From: Longimicrobiales bacterium
GTDB taxonomy: Bacteria; Gemmatimonadota; Gemmatimonadetes; Longimicrobiales; RSA9
Direction of reading: 5' to 3'
Assembly (NCBI GenBank): GCA_035764935.1
Contig: DASTYK010000137.1
Location: 1-45,519, forward strand
DNA: 45,519 bases
In this document: positions 22,071 through 31,517 of the stretch, piece by piece
Layout of the letters: every line of letters starts with the position of its first letter
How positions within the stretch are numbered: the stretch's first letter is position 1
The notes under the pieces: model-generated
Told to the model about the DNA's origin: nothing
Seen by the model: only the letters and a program-made list of their open reading frames with translations
The model's database searches: none
Position numbers and translations under genes: made by a program

Positions 22071-24023
22071 ATGACGCAGCTTGCATTCAATGGCGTCGGC
22101 ATCGACCTCGGCGGAGTCACGCTTCTCGACGGAGTGACCTTCACGGTCGCGCGCGGCGAGCGCTGGGGCGTGCTCGGCCGCAACGGCAGCGGCAAGACGA
22201 CGCTGTTCAACCTGGCCGCCGGCCGGCTCGAACCCTCGCGCGGAAGCATCTCCCGCGCGTCTGCGCTGCGCCTCACCCTGCTCGACCAGCACCGCGAGTT
22301 CGGCGCCGGGACGACGCTCTGGGACGCTGCCGCTTCCCCCTTTGCCGCGCTGCGTGCACTGGAGCACTCGCTGGCGGAGCAGGCGCACGCGCTCGGTGAA
22401 GGCGATGATGCGGCAATGGAGCGCTACGGCCGTGACCTGGAACGTTTCGAGCGCGAGGGCGGCTACACGTATGCCGCACGCGTGGACGCGATCCTGGACG
22501 GCCTGGGCTTCGATCATCATGCTGCCCGGCACCGACAGGTGCGGGAGCTGAGTGGCGGAGAGCTCGGACGGCTCGCGCTGGCGCAGCAGCTTGCGGCACC
22601 CGCGGACATCCTGCTGCTGGACGAGCCGACCAACCATCTCGACCTGGACACCACGCGCTGGCTCGAGCGCTACCTGCGCGAGCTGGACAGCACGGTCCTC
22701 GTGGTCAGCCACGACCGCGCGTTCCTGGATGCCGTGGCCGACCACATCCTGCACGTGGAGCACCGCACGGCCGTTCCGTACACCGGGGGCTATCGCGCCT
22801 TCGTGGAGCAGCGCACGCAGCGGCGGCTGTCGCAGCAGCGGGCGTACGAGAATCAGCAGAAGACGATCGCGGCCGAAGAGGACTACATCCGGCGCAACAT
22901 CGCAGGGCAGAACAGCCGTCAGGCAAAGGGCCGTCGCACGCGACTCGCCCGCCTGCCCCGGCTGAGCCCGCCGCCGGGTGAGGCGGGCGCAATGGCGCTC
23001 CGGCTGGAGCCGGCGAGCCGCGGCGGCGACCAGGTGCTGGTCGCCGAGAATGCACGTCTCGAGATCGGCGGGCGCACACTGCTCCGGACGTTCAGCTCGC
23101 GCATCACGCGCGGCGAAGTCATCGGCCTGGTCGGACCGAACGGTGCCGGCAAATCGACACTCGTGCGCGCGATCATCGGTGAGCGCGCACTCGATGGCGG
23201 CAGCATCAAGGTCGGTGAGTCGATCGACGTCGCATACTACCGCCAGGACCTTTCGCAGGTACCACCGGACCGCACGATCTATTCGATCATCCACGACCTG
23301 CGGCCGCTCTGGAACCGCGGGCAGGTGCAGAATCATCTCGGTCGCTTCGACTTCTCCGGCGACAGCGTGCAGCGCACCGCCGGCTCTCTGTCGGGCGGCG
23401 AGCAGGCCCGTGTTGCGCTCGCGATCCTGATGCTGTCACGTGCAAACTTCCTGATCCTCGACGAGCCGACCAACCACCTCGATGTCGAGTCGATCGAGGC
23501 GCTGGAGGACGCGCTGCGCGAATACCAGGGCACGCTGCTGCTCGTCAGCCACGACCGCGCGCTGCTGGATGAGCTGGTCGACCGCGTATGGTACCTGGAG
23601 GACGGCAGGATCCTGGACTACCCGGGCACGTTCGCCGACTGGCAGACGCAGCACGAGGAGCAGCGGGCTGCGGCAGCGGCATCACAACAGGAGCGTGAAC
23701 AGAAGCAGCGCGAGGAGGAGCGTCGCGTCGCGCGACGTCGAACGGCGTCACAGAAGGGCGGCCGGGTGGACCTTCGCATGCTGCGCGCGGACGCCGAAGA
23801 GGCGGAGCTGGCCGTGCACGAGCTGGAAGCACGCCTGGCCGAGCTGCGCACGGCACTCGCCGATCCCACGCTCTACACCAGCGAAGCCGGCGTGAGCGAG
23901 TCCCGCCGGCTGGATCTGGAACGGCTCGAAGCCGAGAAGCAGCTCGAGCTGGCATTCGCGCGCTGGGCGGAGGCCGGCGACGCCCTCGCCCAGGCCGAAG
24001 CCGCAGGCGCTGCCTCGCGCTAG
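22071..24023 (+). CDS. ABC-F ATPase, Uup-like with C-terminal coiled coil
   Basis: 650 residues. Two ABC domains: GRNGSGKTT / LSGGE / [12 protein letters not shown] and GPNGAGKST / LSGGEQ / [11 protein letters not shown], joined by a charged linker, no membrane helices, then a coiled-coil domain (about 560-650) as in Uup. ABC-F proteins act on the ribosome. GAGG lies 6 bases before the ATG. It follows the MFS exporter in an operon; the 3' end overlaps the convergent ADOP permease by four bases. Substrate step unknown. Confidence 0.93.
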   Translation: MTQLAFNGVGIDLGGVTLLDGVTFTVARGERWGVLGRNGSGKTTLFNLAAGRLEPSRGSISRASALRLTLLDQHREFGAGTTLWDAAASPFAALRALEHSLAEQAHALGEGDDAAMERYGRDLERFEREGGYTYAARVDAILDGLGFDHHAARHRQVRELSGGELGRLALAQQLAAPADILLLDEPTNHLDLDTTRWLERYLRELDSTVLVVSHDRAFLDAVADHILHVEHRTAVPYTGGYRAFVEQRTQRRLSQQRAYENQQKTIAAEEDYIRRNIAGQNSRQAKGRRTRLARLPRLSPPPGEAGAMALRLEPASRGGDQVLVAENARLEIGGRTLLRTFSSRITRGEVIGLVGPNGAGKSTLVRAIIGERALDGGSIKVGESIDVAYYRQDLSQVPPDRTIYSIIHDLRPLWNRGQVQNHLGRFDFSGDSVQRTAGSLSGGEQARVALAILMLSRANFLILDEPTNHLDVESIEALEDALREYQGTLLLVSHDRALLDELVDRVWYLEDGRILDYPGTFADWQTQHEEQRAAAAASQQEREQKQREEERRVARRRTASQKGGRVDLRMLRADAEEAELAVHELEARLAELRTALADPTLYTSEAGVSESRRLDLERLEAEKQLELAFARWAEAGDALAQAEAAGAASR

Positions 24024-26467
24024 TCGCTCTTCAGCACACGCGCGGGATCGACCCGCGTTGCACGCCGGGCAGGAACCAGGCAGGCAACGACAGCCACCGC
24101 GCCGAGCAGTAGCGGGGCCGTCATGAACGCCGCCGTATCGGTCGTGCTGACCTGGTAGAGCAGCGAGCGCAGGAGCCTCGTCAGCATGCCCGCCCCCACC
24201 ATCCCGAGCAGCAGACCGACGGCGGCGACGACCAGCCCCTGGCGCAGCACCATGGTCAATACGCTGGACGGGTGTGCGCCGAGGGCCATGCGAATCCCGA
24301 ACTCCTGGCGTCGCTCCTCCACGGAGTACGCCATGACGCCGTAGGTGCCGATCGCCGCGAGTGCCAGCGCCACACCGGCGAAGATGCCGAGCAGCAGGGT
24401 CAGGAAGCGCGGCTGTGCCATGGACGCGTGCAGCACGTCGTCCATGGGAGCCAGGTTGGCAATCGGCAACGTCGGGTCGGCGGAGCGAACCACGTTGCGC
24501 ACGTCACCCGCGAGATCGAGGGGATCGCGCGTGGTGCGCAGCACGATGTTCATGGTGCGCGGCGCGAAGCCCAGCGTGTTGGCACCCTGCGGGTAGAAGA
24601 AGTACAGCTCCGTGCCGGTCTCCTCGGCTATGCCGCCCTGCTTCACGTCACGCACGACACCCACGACCGTGAACCACGGCAGCTGGTCACTTCCGAACGG
24701 ACGGATGCGCCTGCCGATCGGGTCCTGCCCCGGGAAGAAGACGTCGACGAGTCGCTCGTTGACGAGCACGGCCGGTGCACCTGCCTCGTCGGGCGCCTCG
24801 AAACCGCGCCCTGCAACGAGCCCGATGCCCATCGTCTCCAGGTAGTCCAGCGACGTGAACTGGTAGTAGTCGACGTTCTGCGGCGGGCTGTCCGGCGTCT
24901 GCGGCAGGCCTTCGAACTCCGTGTCGTTGGCATCGAGGTCACGACGGGGCGGAAGGCCGCTCATGGTGCTGACGGATACGACGCCCGGCAGTGCGCGCAG
25001 CTCCGGCAACAGCCGATCGTAGAACGCGTCCTGCGCCGGCCCGTCGCTGTATCCCGCTGCGGGCAGGAACAGCTGGAAGCTGAGCAGCCCGTCGGGGCGG
25101 AAGCCGGGGTCGACGGCCTGCAGCGCGGCAAAGCTGCGCAGCATGAGGCCGGACCCGACCACCAGCATGACCGCGGGCGCGACTTCGGACACGACCAGCG
25201 CCCGTCGCAATTGCTGGCGGAACGAACCTGCCGTCGTGCGGCCGCTGCCGTCGCGCAGCGCACGGTTGGCAACACGCGGCCCGAGGTTCAGGGCAGGTGC
25301 CAGGCCGAAGATCAATCCTGTGACCACGGACACGGCCAGCGTGAACAGCAGCACGGTTGCATCGATCCCGATGGTTTCCGCACGCGGTATCGCGTCCGGG
25401 TTCGTCGCCATCAGCACACGCACGCCCACCCAGCCGAGCGCCAGGCCGAACGCGCCGCCCAGCAGCGCGAGCACCACCCCTTCGGTAAGGAACTGACGCA
25501 GCAGGCGACCGCGGCCGGCGCCGATCGCGGCGCGTACGGCGATCTCCCGCTGTCGGCTTTCGGCACGCGCGAGCAGCAGGTTCGCCACGTTGGCGCACGC
25601 GATCAGGAGGACGAAGCCGACCGCACCCAGCAGCAGCATCAGCGCCGGGCGCACGTCGCTGACCAGGTCCTCCTGCAGCGCCGTCATGAACATCGGATGG
25701 TTGTCGGGCGCAGGCACGTGGGTGGAGGGGTTGATTGTCCCCCACTCCGCCACCAGCCGCGACAGGTCGGCTTCCGCCTGCCCGAGTGTCGCACCGGGCC
25801 GCAGGCGGGCAATCACGTCGAGGTAGTGCGAGCCGCGGTTCTCCCGGTTCGAGCGGTCCAGCGCTGCCGGCAGCCAGACCTCGACACCCGCATCCGCCAC
25901 GTCGAAGCCGGGCGGCATGATGCCGGTCACCAGCGCCTCACTGCCGTTCACTCGGATCTGCCGGCCGAGCACATCCTCGGATCCGCCGAAGGCGCGCTGC
26001 CAGAGCTCCCACGACAGCACCACGACGGGCGCGGTGTTCGGCGCGTCTTCCTGCGCGTTGAAGGGGCGTCCGCGCAGGGGTGGCACACCCAGCACCTCGA
26101 ACAGCTCGTGCGTCGCGATCGCCGAGGTGACCCGCAGCGGGGCCTCGTCGCCGCCGACGCTCGCCTCCCCCGTGCGGTAGCCGGCCACTGCGAGCAGCGT
26201 CCGGTTGCGCTCCTGCAGCTCCATCAGCTCCGGCGGCGAAAGCCAGAACTCGTCGAACCCCAGTGTCGGAAACTGCGAGGCGATCCGGACCAGGCGCTCC
26301 GGTGCGCCGTACGGCAGCGGGCGAAGCACCACACCGTTCAACACGGAGAAGATCGCGCTGTTGGCACCGATGCCGAGGGCCAGGGTCAGAATCGTGACGA
26401 GTGCGAAGGCGGGCGACTTGCGCAGCGAGCGGATGGCGTAGCGCACATCCGTGTACAGCTCTGACAT
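24020..26467 (-). CDS. ADOP-type MacB/FtsX permease
   Basis: 815 residues. It carries a MacB-PCD periplasmic domain after helix 1 (from about residue 20), two FtsX-like permease units with paired helices around 280-420 and 690-800, and the conserved ARSLRKSPAFALVTILTLALGIGANSAIF-type start. This is the duplicated orphan permease family common in Acidobacteria and Gemmatimonadota. The ATG has GGAGG at 5 bases. No ATPase partner lies next to it, and the function of ADOP proteins is not settled. Confidence 0.9.
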   Translation of the reverse strand: MSELYTDVRYAIRSLRKSPAFALVTILTLALGIGANSAIFSVLNGVVLRPLPYGAPERLVRIASQFPTLGFDEFWLSPPELMELQERNRTLLAVAGYRTGEASVGGDEAPLRVTSAIATHELFEVLGVPPLRGRPFNAQEDAPNTAPVVVLSWELWQRAFGGSEDVLGRQIRVNGSEALVTGIMPPGFDVADAGVEVWLPAALDRSNRENRGSHYLDVIARLRPGATLGQAEADLSRLVAEWGTINPSTHVPAPDNHPMFMTALQEDLVSDVRPALMLLLGAVGFVLLIACANVANLLLARAESRQREIAVRAAIGAGRGRLLRQFLTEGVVLALLGGAFGLALGWVGVRVLMATNPDAIPRAETIGIDATVLLFTLAVSVVTGLIFGLAPALNLGPRVANRALRDGSGRTTAGSFRQQLRRALVVSEVAPAVMLVVGSGLMLRSFAALQAVDPGFRPDGLLSFQLFLPAAGYSDGPAQDAFYDRLLPELRALPGVVSVSTMSGLPPRRDLDANDTEFEGLPQTPDSPPQNVDYYQFTSLDYLETMGIGLVAGRGFEAPDEAGAPAVLVNERLVDVFFPGQDPIGRRIRPFGSDQLPWFTVVGVVRDVKQGGIAEETGTELYFFYPQGANTLGFAPRTMNIVLRTTRDPLDLAGDVRNVVRSADPTLPIANLAPMDDVLHASMAQPRFLTLLLGIFAGVALALAAIGTYGVMAYSVEERRQEFGIRMALGAHPSSVLTMVLRQGLVVAAVGLLLGMVGAGMLTRLLRSLLYQVSTTDTAAFMTAPLLLGAVAVVACLVPARRATRVDPARVLKSD

Positions 26468-26627
26468 GTGGCCTCCGGAGGACGCATGCTCGGTCGGAAC
26501 TGATTCATTCTGACGGGTGCCGGATGCCGTACGCGTGGGACGGGGGATGAGTTGCGGGCTGTGCGATATGGATCAACCGGAATGAGGGGGCGCGGACACG
26601 CGCGGGCCCACCGGCTCAGGCGGAAAA

Positions 26628-26722
26628 TGGCGAGGGTGCATGGGAGTCGAACCCACCCGACCGTCGTGGACGGTCGCACGGCGTTTGAAGCGCCGGGCCA
26701 GCACCGGCTGACACCCACCCCC
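26628..26722 (-). tRNA. selC: Selenocysteine tRNA (TCA), CCA encoded
   Basis: A 95-base minus-strand gene with the tRNA-Sec layout: 8-base acceptor strand, six-pair D stem (GTCAGC/GCTGGC), anticodon stem CGGCG/CGCCG around CTTCAAA (anticodon TCA), a long variable arm with 7 pairs (CGACCGT/ACGGTCG), T-loop TTCGACT, and an encoded CCA at 26628-26630. One acceptor pair (8th) is G-G and one is G-T. Decoding UGA as Sec also needs SelA, SelB and SelD, which are not in the window. It sits 14 bases after the PAS-only gene, so it may be transcribed with it. Confidence 0.93.
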
Positions 26723-26736
26723 GTTACTGCTTGCCG

Positions 26737-27612
26737 TCAGATCCCGCTTTCGCTGTCCTGCTCGAGGCGTGACAGTCGCTCCGCGAGTTCCTGCAGATGC
26801 CGATTGCTGCGCAGCATGGCCTCCTGTGCCGCCCGGCGCTCGCTCACGTCATGCAGGGTACCGTGCACGGTGATCACCGCACCCTGGCGGTCGCGCACGA
26901 CGTCGCCAGTGCACTCGAACGTCCGGTAGCCGCCGCGCGTGTCTGCGACCCGCACCTCGAACGGCCCGATCCGCGATCCCGGAACTCCCGGCTCACCCGC
27001 GGGCGCACACCGGCCCCACTGCCCTTCCACAGCAGCGACGTCCTCCGGATGCAGCCGTGCCCGCCACTCCGACCAGTCGCGCTCGCCGCCGTCGGGATAT
27101 CCCAGCAGCAGGCAAAGCGAACCATCCACGTTGATGCGTCGCCGTGCGGGGTCGATCTCCCACACGCCGACCCGCCCGTTCGCCGTCACCGCCCGGTAGC
27201 GCTGCAGCAGTCGACGATAGCGCATCTCCGCCGCGTGGGCGCTCGTGACGTCCAGGTGTGTGACTACCGCGCCGCCTCCCGGCAGCGCCGTCGCTTCCAG
27301 TACCTGCCGGCGTTCGCCGTGCGCCGCCGGGTGCTCCAGGCGAAACCGGGGCGTGCGCGCCGCCAGCACCGCTGCGATGCCGTCGTGCAGCAGCCGCGCG
27401 TGTGCCGTGCCTCCCTCTGCCAGGTGCTGCAGGCTCTTCAGGTAGTTGAACCCGCCTCCAGCCCGGAATGCCGACGCGCCCGGCGCGTGCTGCTGCCACG
27501 CCGCTGTCGCGAAACGCACCACGCCCGCAGCATCGAGGACGCAGAACGGCAGCGCCGCAGCCTCGACGGCAATGCGCACCAGCGTCGCATCTTCCCGTCC
27601 GAAGTCAGTCAT
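26737..27612 (-). CDS. PAS-domain protein without output domain
   Basis: 291 residues from the ATG at 27612. Two PAS-type folds are visible: one from about 10-110 (ALPFCVLDAAGVVRFATAAW) and a stronger PAS_3-like one from about 150-260 (GVWEIDPARRRINVDGSLCLLLGYP, then the PAC block ending ITVHGTLHDVSERRAAQ), followed by a short coiled coil. No kinase, HTH, GGDEF or receiver is seen, so it must pass signals to a partner. It is divergent from the histidine kinase, an obvious candidate. An in-frame ATG at 27669 is the alternative start. Confidence 0.8.
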   Translation of the reverse strand: MTDFGREDATLVRIAVEAAALPFCVLDAAGVVRFATAAWQQHAPGASAFRAGGGFNYLKSLQHLAEGGTAHARLLHDGIAAVLAARTPRFRLEHPAAHGERRQVLEATALPGGGAVVTHLDVTSAHAAEMRYRRLLQRYRAVTANGRVGVWEIDPARRRINVDGSLCLLLGYPDGGERDWSEWRARLHPEDVAAVEGQWGRCAPAGEPGVPGSRIGPFEVRVADTRGGYRTFECTGDVVRDRQGAVITVHGTLHDVSERRAAQEAMLRSNRHLQELAERLSRLEQDSESGI

Positions 27613-27681
27613 GTCGCGCGTCCGGCGTCGCGTGGTGCCAGCTGTCCAGGAACATGGCGCGAATCGCATCAACGCACCAAA

Positions 27682-27709
27682 CTAATAGAACGCCCGCTGT
27701 ATCGGGCAA
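27682..27709 (-). promoter_or_regulatory. Predicted promoter of the PAS gene
   Basis: The minus strand has TTGCCC (27704-27709), a 16-base spacer and TATTAG (27682-27687); start near 27675. This gives a 5' UTR of about 60 bases to the ATG at 27612. Confidence 0.4.
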
Positions 27710-27775
27710 GGACGGACTTCCTGCCCGCCGTCCCGACTCTCACGATGCGACAGCGCACCTGCGCCACGATGCTTG

Positions 27776-29608
27776 ATGGGAACTGATCTCCACGACCAGG
27801 TTGGTGAGGCGCTGATCGAGGTTCTGGCAGCGCGAGTTCTGGGGACCGGTGCGGAGTTCGTGCTGGTGACGGACGCGGCCGGTCACATCCGCTGGGCAAG
27901 CGCAGAGCCGGTGCGCTGGGATGCGAGTCACTGGCGCGGCATGGCGTTCGCCGCGCTCCTGGATGACCTCGGCAGCGCGCCGGGCGAACTGCTGCGGCCG
28001 CGGCGTGCGCGTTCGCACACGGTCGTGGCGCGTGACTCGGCCGGGCGGCGCATCGAGCTGCGACTGCAGGTCGAGCCCCTGCAGGGAGCGGATGGTCACT
28101 CGCTGATCGTTGCCCGCAGGCTCGAGGCGCCGGTGGAGGCGCCTTCGAGCGATGCGGGAATGCGCGCCATCCTGGAGGGTCTCCCGGTTGCGGTTGCGCT
28201 CATCAATCCCGCCGGTCTCGTCACGCAGACGAACAGCGCCGGTCGATCGCTGTGGGGGGAAAGCCCGCTGCATGCCGTAGTCGAGCGTGCACCGGACGTC
28301 GAGACACTGTACGACCTGTTCAACCAGGCGTTGCGCAGCCAGAGACCGATCATCGGCCGGATCCTGGATGTGCGTGCGCTGGACGGCACCCGGCACGTCC
28401 TGCGCGCGAGTGCCCTGCCCTGGTTCGATCCGAGCGGGCGGACGGCCGGCGTGATTGGCGCTGCCACCGACGTCACGGACATGCACCAGATGCAGGCCGA
28501 GCGATCCGAGCTGCAGAGTGCGCTGCGCAATGAGCGGCAGCGCTTTGCGAGTGTGCTGCGCCAGGTTCCTGCGGCCGTAGCGATGACGGTGGGGCCCCAG
28601 CACCGGCTGGAGGCTGCGAACGAGCGCTGCATCGGTCTCGCGGCACGACCGCTCCAGGAGGGCCGCACGGTAGCCGAGCTGTTTCCGGACCTGGTGGAGC
28701 GCGGGCTGCACCGCCTGCTGGATCGCGCGTACGCGACCGGGAACCCGGTCGTGCGGCGGGAAGTGCACCTGGACCACCCGCTGTACGGCCAGCGCAACAT
28801 CGACTTCGTGGTGCAGCCGCTGCTGGACAGCGCTGGTGCCGTCTTCGGCCTCATGCTGCACGCCATGGACGTGACGGAGCAGGTGCAGGCGCGACGCTCG
28901 GTCGAGAGTGCCAGCCAGGCGAAGACGGAGCTGGTCGCCCACCTGAGTCACGAGCTGCGCACGCCGCTCAACGCGATCATCGGTTACTCGCAGCTGCTGC
29001 TTGCCGGAAGTGCTGGCGATGTCACCGAGAAAGGCCGGGAGTACGTACGCCGCGTGGAGCGCAGCGCGCACACGCTGCAGAGGCTCATCGACGACATCCT
29101 CGCGCAATCGCGACTGGATGCAGGGCGCGAGCCGCCGAATCCCGAAGACATGGACGTGCACGCCTTCCTCGATGACGTGCGCACCACGATCGAGCCGCTG
29201 GCAGCGGCGCGCGGCCTCGCGTTCAACCTCGATGTCGACCGGATGCCGCACACGCTCTTCATGGACCGGCGCAAGCTGCTGCAGATCGTGCTGAACCTGC
29301 TGTCCAACGGCGTACGCTACACCCGGGAGGGCGAGGTCAGCCTCACGATGTACGTGGACGGCGGAATGCTGCACATACAGGTGCGCGACACCGGAATCGG
29401 GATGGACACCGCCACGCAGGCGCGCGTGTTCGAACCGTTCTGGCAGGCCGATCGCACCCGCCGGGAGGGTACGGGTCTCGGGCTCACGATCACCAAGCAG
29501 CTGATCGAGACAATGGGCGGCTCGATCGGCGTCGAGAGTACGCCGGGGCGCGGCACGACGTTCCGCGTCGCGCTCCCGGCGAAACGCCGGCGCATACCCG
29601 AGTACTGA
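27776..29608 (+). CDS. Soluble PAS-type sensor histidine kinase
   Basis: 610 residues, no membrane helices. PAS-like regions lie at about 20-115, 130-240 and 255-370, then the dimerisation/phospho-acceptor helix with His392 (VAHLSHELRTPLNAI) and an HATPase domain with LNLLSNGVRY (N box), DTGIGMD (G1) and GTGLGLTI (G2). It has no receiver domain, and no response regulator is nearby. ATG 27776 is used; the TTG at 27773 is just upstream. It is divergent from the PAS-only gene and ends in a hairpin at 29620-29653. Confidence 0.92.
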   Translation: MGTDLHDQVGEALIEVLAARVLGTGAEFVLVTDAAGHIRWASAEPVRWDASHWRGMAFAALLDDLGSAPGELLRPRRARSHTVVARDSAGRRIELRLQVEPLQGADGHSLIVARRLEAPVEAPSSDAGMRAILEGLPVAVALINPAGLVTQTNSAGRSLWGESPLHAVVERAPDVETLYDLFNQALRSQRPIIGRILDVRALDGTRHVLRASALPWFDPSGRTAGVIGAATDVTDMHQMQAERSELQSALRNERQRFASVLRQVPAAVAMTVGPQHRLEAANERCIGLAARPLQEGRTVAELFPDLVERGLHRLLDRAYATGNPVVRREVHLDHPLYGQRNIDFVVQPLLDSAGAVFGLMLHAMDVTEQVQARRSVESASQAKTELVAHLSHELRTPLNAIIGYSQLLLAGSAGDVTEKGREYVRRVERSAHTLQRLIDDILAQSRLDAGREPPNPEDMDVHAFLDDVRTTIEPLAAARGLAFNLDVDRMPHTLFMDRRKLLQIVLNLLSNGVRYTREGEVSLTMYVDGGMLHIQVRDTGIGMDTATQARVFEPFWQADRTRREGTGLGLTITKQLIETMGGSIGVESTPGRGTTFRVALPAKRRRIPEY

Positions 29609-29669: not shown

Positions 29670-31361
29670 CTAGCGCACCAGCTTCCGGTACTTCACACGG
29701 TGCGGCTGATCCGCGTCCGCGCCGACACGGCGCCGGTGATCCGCCTCGTACTCCTGGTAATTGCCCTCGAACCAGACGACCTGCGATTCCCCTTCGAACG
29801 CGAGGATGTGCGTCGCGATCCGGTCGAGGAACCAGCGGTCGTGGCTGACGACGACGGCGCAGCCGGGGAATCCCAGCAGGCCTTCCTCGAGCGCGCGCAG
29901 CGTATCCACGTCGAGGTCGTTGGTCGGCTCGTCGAGCAGGATCAGGTTGCCACCCTTGCGCAGTACCCTGGCGAGGTGCACGCGGTTGCGCTCACCACCC
30001 GACAGCACGCCAACCTTCTTCTGCTGGTCCGCGCCCTTGAAGCCGAACCAGGAGCAATACGCGCGTGAGCTGACGGTCGCGCCGCGGCCCAGCTCGATCT
30101 CGTCCTGCCCGTTCGAGATCTCCTCCCAGACGCTCTTTTCCGCATCCAGCGCATCTCGGCTCTGGTCCACGTACGCGAGCTCCACTGTCGAGCCTACCTT
30201 CAGCGTGCCGCCGTCTGGCTGCGCGTCGCCCGTGATCATGCGGAGCAGCGTGGTCTTGCCTGCGCCGTTCGGCCCCACGATGCCGACGATGCCGCCGCGC
30301 GGCAGCCGGAAGGAGAGGTCGTCGAACAGCAGCTTGTCGCCGAAGGACTTGCTGACGCTTTCCGCGACCACGACCTCGTCGCCGAGACGCTGCCCCTCGG
30401 GAATCACGATCTCTGCGCGCGTCAGCTTTTCCCGGGCGCCCTCGCTCGCGAGCTCCTCGAACGCCTGCAGTCGCGCCTTGCCCTTGGCCTGGCGTGCACG
30501 CGGCGCCATGCGCACCCACTCCAGCTCGCGCTCCAGGGTGCGCTGCTTCGCCGATTCCGCCTTCTCCTCGCGCCGCAGCCGCTCCTGCTTCTGCTCCAGC
30601 CAGGATGTGTAGTTGCCCTTCCACGGAATGCCCTCGCCGCGATCCAGCTCCAGGATCCATTCGGCGACGTTGTCCAGGAAGTAGCGGTCGTGCGTGATCG
30701 CGACGATCGTCCCCTTGAACTCGGCCAGGTGCTTCTCGAGCCAGGCGACCGACTCCGCATCGAGATGGTTGGTCGGCTCGTCGAGCAGCAGCATGTCCGG
30801 CTCCTCGAGCAGTACGCGACAGAGCGCAACGCGACGGCGCTCACCGCCGGATAGCGTCTCGACCGACGCGTCATCCGGGGGCAGCCGGAGCGCGTCCATC
30901 GCAATGTCGATCTTGCGGTCCAGCTCCCAGAGCCCCTGCGCCTCGATCTGGTCCTGCAGCGCCGCCTGCTCGTTGATGAGCGACTCCATCTCCTCGTCGC
31001 TCATCGGCTCGGCGAAGCGTGCGGAGACCTCCTCGAACCTGCGGAGCAGCTCGCGCTTGGAGCGCACCGCCTCCTCCACGTTGGCGCGGACGTTCAGCGC
31101 AGCGTCCAGCTGCGGCTCCTGCGGCAGGTAGCCGATGCGCGTGCCCTTCATCGGCCAGGCCTCTCCCTGGAAGTCGGCATCGATGCCGGCCATGATGCGG
31201 AGCAGCGTGGACTTCCCCGCCCCGTTCGGCCCGACCACGCCGATCTTGGCGCCCGGGTAGAACGACAGCCAGATGCCCTTCAGGACCTCACGCTTCGGTG
31301 GGACGACCTTGCGCAGGTCCTTCATGACGTAGATGAACTTCGACGTATCGGTAGTGCTCAT
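29670..31361 (-). CDS. ettA: Energy-dependent translational throttle protein EttA (ABC-F)
   Basis: 563 residues, usual size. Two ABC domains: GPNGAGKST with LSGGERRR and [13 protein letters not shown], then GPNGAGKTT with LSGGERNR and [12 protein letters not shown]; the P-site tRNA interaction arm lies between them. EttA gates the first peptide bonds according to energy charge. ATG 31361 has GGAAGG 2 bases upstream; the upstream frame is ignored. It is convergent with the histidine kinase and divergent from the DAK2-DegV gene. Confidence 0.96.
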
Positions 31362-31517
31362 GACCTTCCGGAAAGCCGGTGAAACGGCCGCCACGGGGCG
31401 GCCGGCCGCTTGCGTAGTCGCGCACGGAAGCTAGGCAAAGTGCCGCAGGCGTCCAGTCCCTCCGGGGCGCGACCCGCGGCTGTCGGAGCGAACCACGGGC
31501 GCATTATGTTGGACGCC

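Follow-up and report, generated by a model that had tools for sequence, protein, structure and literature searches.

A selenocysteine tRNA gene with a mismatched eighth acceptor pair in a Longimicrobiales genome that encodes SelA, SelB, SelD and formate dehydrogenase

The window (the whole stretch of 45,519 nt analysed here, from a Longimicrobiales bacterium of the phylum Gemmatimonadota) carries a gene, selC, for the tRNA of selenocysteine (Sec), the 21st amino acid. It is an ordinary gene of its kind that is almost surely working, and the first-pass annotation, which had recognised it and taken it as a sign of Sec decoding, was right on both the sequence and its meaning. A mismatch at the junction of the acceptor and T stems is a modest extra on this ordinary gene. 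The gene and its surroundings are laid out as follows:

24020–26467, minus strand: MacB_PCD/FtsX-type permease ORF, downstream neighbour of selC
26628–26722, minus strand: tRNA-Sec gene (selC), from ARAGORN, Rfam RF01852, the fold and the structural read-out (locus L028)
26723–26736, minus strand: 14-nt spacer from the TGA stop of the PAS ORF to tRNA position 1
26737–27672, minus strand: PAS ORF of 311 aa with two PAS domains, upstream neighbour of selC
29670–31394, minus strand: ABC-F type ATPase ORF (two ABC_tran domains, one ABC_tran_Xtn)

The presence of the gene in the window is confirmed. ARAGORN calls a tRNA-SeC with anticodon tca at 26628–26722 on the minus strand, and the covariance-model scan that had been proposed as a check on the first-pass annotation matched RF01852 at 26632–26722 (model positions 1–91) with 69.2 bits and an E-value of 3.3e-12, above the gathering score of 47. 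This is the only match above that score in the source genome. The gene is 95 nt long and encodes both G73 and CCA, with GCCA directly after the 3′ strand of the acceptor. The acceptor strands, GGGGGUGG against GCACCCUC, form standard pairs at positions 1–7 and a G-G at the 8th position, which the first-pass annotation had missed. All five pairs of the T stem are formed (first pair G49-U65, next pair U50-A64), giving an acceptor/T helix of 8 + 5 positions, or 13 layers, all of them present. The predicted fold further contains an anticodon arm, a D stem of six pairs (GUCAGC/GCUGGC) and a variable arm that can be drawn with 8 pairs and a 3-nt loop or, equally, with 7 pairs and a 5-nt loop. This is in accordance with the six-pair D stem, long 7-pair variable arm and encoded CCA described earlier. 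The anticodon loop and the T loop are intact. The fold is only modestly better than that of shuffled sequences, which speaks somewhat against a working gene: it has a z-score of -1.7, and 11 of 200 shuffles fold equally well or better.

The partners of the tRNA were found elsewhere in the genome. SelA (542 bits, positions 2–453 of 455, contig C149) and SelB (371.5 bits, positions 2–578 of 581, contig C16) both score over the NCBIfam cut-off and have intact frames without stops. The SelA protein has relatives at four named loci with 43–53% identity, including L052 (Gemmatimonadota) and L053 (Gemmatimonadales). SelD (390 bits, contig C150) has one in-frame TGA near the N-terminus, in the context SHGAG-U-ACKLG, and the formate dehydrogenase alpha chain FdhA (976 bits over joined matches, contig C113) has one in the context ENQARI-U-HSSSV; we take these two UGA positions to be the Sec sites of their families. 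The fdhA TGA is followed by a bSECIS-like hairpin of six pairs, GTCCCC-GGTCT-GGGGAC, and a seven-pair hairpin lies downstream of the selD TGA, both predicted from folding only, without a shuffle control. The GGTCT loop starts at nt 22, counting from the T of the TGA, and presumably both the loop and this distance are those of the E. coli fdhF SECIS. The search of the genome for SelA, SelB, SelD and in-frame UGA codons with SECIS elements, which had also been proposed, thus found all of these, the hairpins as predictions. In the literature, FdhA and SelD stand out as the bacterial selenoproteins with the widest distribution (PMC5029168).

Sec decoding in this lineage, as the first-pass annotation implied, is therefore supported by the presence in one genome of SelA, SelB, a Sec-type SelD and a Sec-type FdhA, and the predicted Sec system of the genome is complete. 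No selA, selB, selD or selenoprotein gene had been seen in the window, and indeed SelA, SelB, SelD and FdhA gave no match at E 0.001 on its contig (C137). Each of the five genes has a contig of its own, and because the other Sec genes sit on four contigs apart from that of selC, the description of the system as dispersed holds at the contig level.

Compared with the E. coli type of selC described by RF01852, the window's tRNA shares UCA, G73, CCA, the eight acceptor and five T layers, the six-pair D stem, the long variable arm and G49-U65. It differs at the 8th acceptor pair, which is G-G here, G-A in 122 of 149 relatives and C-G in E. coli, and at pair 50-64, which is U50-A64 here and C50-G64 in E. 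coli. The covariance score, the UCA anticodon, G73, the 13 layers, the D stem and the variable arm together place the gene among the bacterial tRNA-Sec genes. Within these, the 7/5 tRNA-Sec (Cloacimonetes type and others) has a 12-bp acceptor/T helix with seven residues between the T stem and G73, most with an acceptor bulge (PMC5330540). Like the window's tRNA it lacks the fully paired 8/5 helix, but it loses a layer, whereas the window's tRNA keeps all eight with one pair mismatched.

The mismatched 8th pair, along with the fact that none of the other sel genes found shares a contig with selC, might suggest a relic of a lost Sec system. However, SelA, SelB, SelD and FdhA are all present in the genome, G73, CCA, the T loop and the anticodon loop are intact, relatives usually have a mismatch at the 8th pair as well, and SelA accompanies tRNA-Sec in 143 of the 149 drawn genomes that have the tRNA. 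The absence of SelA and SelB had been put forward as the finding that would point to a relic gene; as both are present, we rule out a relic and give it next to no probability. Equally far-fetched, in our judgement, is a selC-like tRNA that serves elsewhere, as a selC*-tRNA-Cys or an allo-tRNA. Such look-alikes do exist (PMC7609411), they share the long acceptor stem and variable arm with the window's tRNA, and RF01852 matches are called tRNA-Cys (GCA) in four genomes from the phylum of G206 (Candidatus Aquicultor). However, selC* tRNAs have U73, an 8/4 fold and mostly GCA, where the window's selC has G73, 8/5 and UCA and so none of these marks; allo-tRNAs are 8/4 or 9/3; and nothing else in this genome, which has SelA and SelB, scores above the gathering threshold. 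The preferred reading remains a working tRNA-Sec.

The immediate neighbour of selC had been described as a PAS-only gene 14 bases away. The spacer is exactly 14 nt, and PAS_3 and PAS_4 alone pass the Pfam cut-off in this ORF, with no output domain over it. Because the PAS ORF and selC share a strand and lie 14 nt apart, co-transcription is possible, and the two could be thought of as a functional unit in which, for example, redox or oxygen sensing is coupled to Sec decoding. A scan of 26400–28000 for sigma-70-like promoters, the one type covered, found none, which counts against a working selC. Against such a unit stands the absence of a relative of the PAS protein beside selC, both in 10 other loci of the family at E 1e-3 and in the other 153 Gemmatimonadota loci (tblastn, E 1e-10), where the flanks of the 154 loci are mostly 1.5–2.5 kb and often ended by contig ends. 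Among the 154 loci the PAS protein is thus seen in the window's own only, and because no relative accompanies selC in the others the adjacency looks accidental. A functional message in the proximity of the PAS ORF is not supported, and we consider a functional unit very unlikely.

Likewise, neither the permease downstream of selC nor the next ORF upstream gave a match in the other 153 selC loci (E 1e-10). In both G008 and G009 the region upstream of selC contains a relative of the ABC-F ATPase (77–79% identity); these two genomes represent one other genus of the window's family, so that two genera support the shared neighbourhood. This would most simply be read as the ABC-F gene being an older neighbour of selC, with the genes in between arriving later. 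At the far end of the window, positions 1–76 contain the beginning of a minus-strand 16S rRNA gene that is truncated by the window end, and genes for tRNA-Lys, tRNA-His and tRNA-Arg lie near this partial gene at 468–754 (ARAGORN).

Some other Gemmatimonadota show a different arrangement of the sel genes. The window's genome has no selD in the flanks of selC, whereas a selD match (E 1e-10) was found there in 48 of 154 loci (e.g., L129, L101 and L109), with identities of 48–53% among the 12 of the 48 matches that are listed. No match to selA or fdhA was found in the flanks of the 154 loci, mostly 1.5–2.5 kb. In two genomes of another class, G014 and G017, selD and a match to a divergent selB (27% identity) are found no more than 2.5 kb from selC, with selA ∼3.2–3.4 kb away from it. 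The simplest reading of this pattern would be that the Sec genes were once clustered and that the cluster was later broken up.

In order to assess the distribution of Sec decoding we used a draw of 200 Gemmatimonadota genomes, with tRNA-Sec counted at E 1e-9 and SelA at E 1e-40. The tRNA was found in 149 of these genomes and SelA in 152: both in 143, SelA only in nine, tRNA-Sec only in six and neither in 42. The co-occurrence has a Fisher p of 9e-28 (with kinship ignored), and the agreement is imperfect because of the nine SelA-only and six tRNA-only genomes. In the family of the window, RF01852 scored above its threshold in all 12 genomes, of which 11 were counted as having tRNA-Sec; G011 was left out because its best match is a tRNA-Ser by ARAGORN. 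This genome, which is 85% complete, also lacks a SelB match at E 1e-40. These counts indicate that Sec decoding is probably widespread in Gemmatimonadota. The name Gemmatimonadota is absent from the main text, supplements apart, of PMC5330540, PMC5029168 and PMC13188914. Judged by title and the start of the abstract, searches of the open-licence PMC literature gave nothing on point that links Gemmatimonadota (Gemmatimonadetes) to selenocysteine or selenoproteins, PMC8318568 and PMC3281104 using both terms most prominently, and nothing on point for the acceptor or cloverleaf of tRNA-Sec.

The nine SelA-only genomes were searched again for the tRNA at E 1e-3. All 30 loci returned were ordinary tRNAs according to ARAGORN, a classification that covers matches with a locus only. 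All nine have a SelB match at E 1e-40, in G166 as partial matches under the cut-off. Two of them, G164 and G190 of family f9, are each assembled as a single record and have full-length matches to both SelA and SelB (SelB loci L374 and L375); their RF01852 matches with a locus at E 1e-3 (3 of 10 and 3 of 8, respectively) are ordinary tRNAs, and no RF01852 match lies within 1.5 kb of selB. Their missing tRNA-Sec could be a divergent selC or fall into an assembly gap (L351 contains 100 N). A third genome of family f9, G172, has tRNA-Sec. Two high-scoring tRNA-Sec matches in a single genome were seen in G014 (L149 and L192), G282, G376, G387 and G419.

To describe the acceptor junction across the phylum, 154 selC loci from 153 genomes were entered into a structural read-out that required at least six of the first seven acceptor pairs and at least four of five T-stem pairs, and 149 were read. 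Three of the unread loci (L152, L165 and L197) are cut by contig ends and have no ARAGORN call, and two (L188 and L193) do not fit the pattern, though ARAGORN calls them tRNA-SeC. G115 is counted among the tRNA-Sec genomes, with its locus left out of the read-out. G73 and all five T-stem pairs are present in every one of the 149 genes. At the 8th pair we found G-A in 122, G-G in 12, U-A in nine, C-G in three, C-A in two and U-C in one, and G-A genes occur in 63 of 75 genera. An alternative scoring with wider offsets read 150 genes with 115 G-A, a difference due to seven genes in which the start moved by 2 nt, which we judged to be wrong. Nine loci (L140, L144, L153, L157, L158, L161, L162, L163 and L168) have a mismatched 6th acceptor pair beside the G-A at the 8th.

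The nature of the 8th pair is linked to that of the first T-stem pair. G49-U65 is seen in none of the 122 G-A genes and in 17 of the 27 others, including the window's, and the association persists at the genus level (Fisher p 4e-6, four genera being counted on either side and kinship being removed in part). Four of the 149 genes have a standard pair at both positions. Two other phyla were read for comparison. The phylum of G206 gave 88 readable loci out of 99, with U-C in 27, C-G in 22, A-C in 14, G-G in 10, G-A in seven, the seven-layer type in five and others in three. Here G49-U65 accompanies U-C, A-C and U-U in 42 of 42 genes, and G-C at 49-65 accompanies G-A (7/7), C-G (22/22) and most G-G genes (9/10). 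Both pairs are thus standard in 22 of 88 genes, or in 12 of 78 if we set aside 10 of the C-G genes that lack G73 as read and may be in the wrong register. ARAGORN calls the 11 unread loci of this phylum tRNA-SeC (six), tRNA-Cys (four) and tRNA-Ser (one). The RF01852 matches called tRNA-Cys (GCA) are L334, L335, L339 and L340, in G328, G363, G299 and G332; these genomes also carry a UCA tRNA-Sec (L239, L240, L241 and L263), and the tRNA-Cys genes are perhaps of the selC* type. In the phylum of G209 (Deltaproteobacteria bacterium MAG) all 40 loci were read, with C-G in 24, U-C in 13 and U-A, G-G and G-C in one each, and all 40 have G49-U65. A G-A at the 8th pair never occurs together with G49-U65 in the sampled genes.

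A mismatched 8th pair is therefore not special to Gemmatimonadota. Because other mismatches at this position are common in the two other phyla, the mismatch, widespread as judged from these genomes, is a variant detail and not a new kind of tRNA. A strict rule by which one non-standard step always remains at the junction fails on the genes with both pairs standard, and their existence means that such a step is not obligatory.

The E. coli pairs C7-G66, G49-U65 and C50-G64 are described as SelB identity elements that reject EF-Tu (PMC9976931), and the window's selC keeps one of the three, G49-U65. It is conceivable, if rather unlikely, that in most Gemmatimonadota and some members of another phylum this EF-Tu-rejecting, SelB-favouring signal has shifted by one layer, with a purine-purine mismatch, G-A or sometimes G-G, at the 8th pair replacing G49-U65, and that the window's gene, with its G-G and G-U, is an intermediate. 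The genes with neither feature, in both Gemmatimonadota and the phylum of G206, weaken this proposal.

Taken together, we are highly confident that selC works as follows. The transcript would be serylated by SerRS; SelA would then turn it into Sec-tRNA, using selenophosphate from SelD, and SelB would deliver the Sec-tRNA to UGA codons with a downstream bSECIS hairpin, at least those of fdhA and selD. Expression, charging and decoding are what we infer from the sequences of the tRNA and its partners. With less assurance, and by analogy to E. coli, the non-Watson-Crick 8th pair (G-G in the window's gene, mostly G-A across the phylum) and the first T-stem pair may share the role that C7-G66, G49-U65 and C50-G64 have there, favouring SelB and rejecting EF-Tu. 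A mismatch so common across the phylum, at a pair known to reject EF-Tu, provides a natural series of variants for the discrimination between SelB and EF-Tu.
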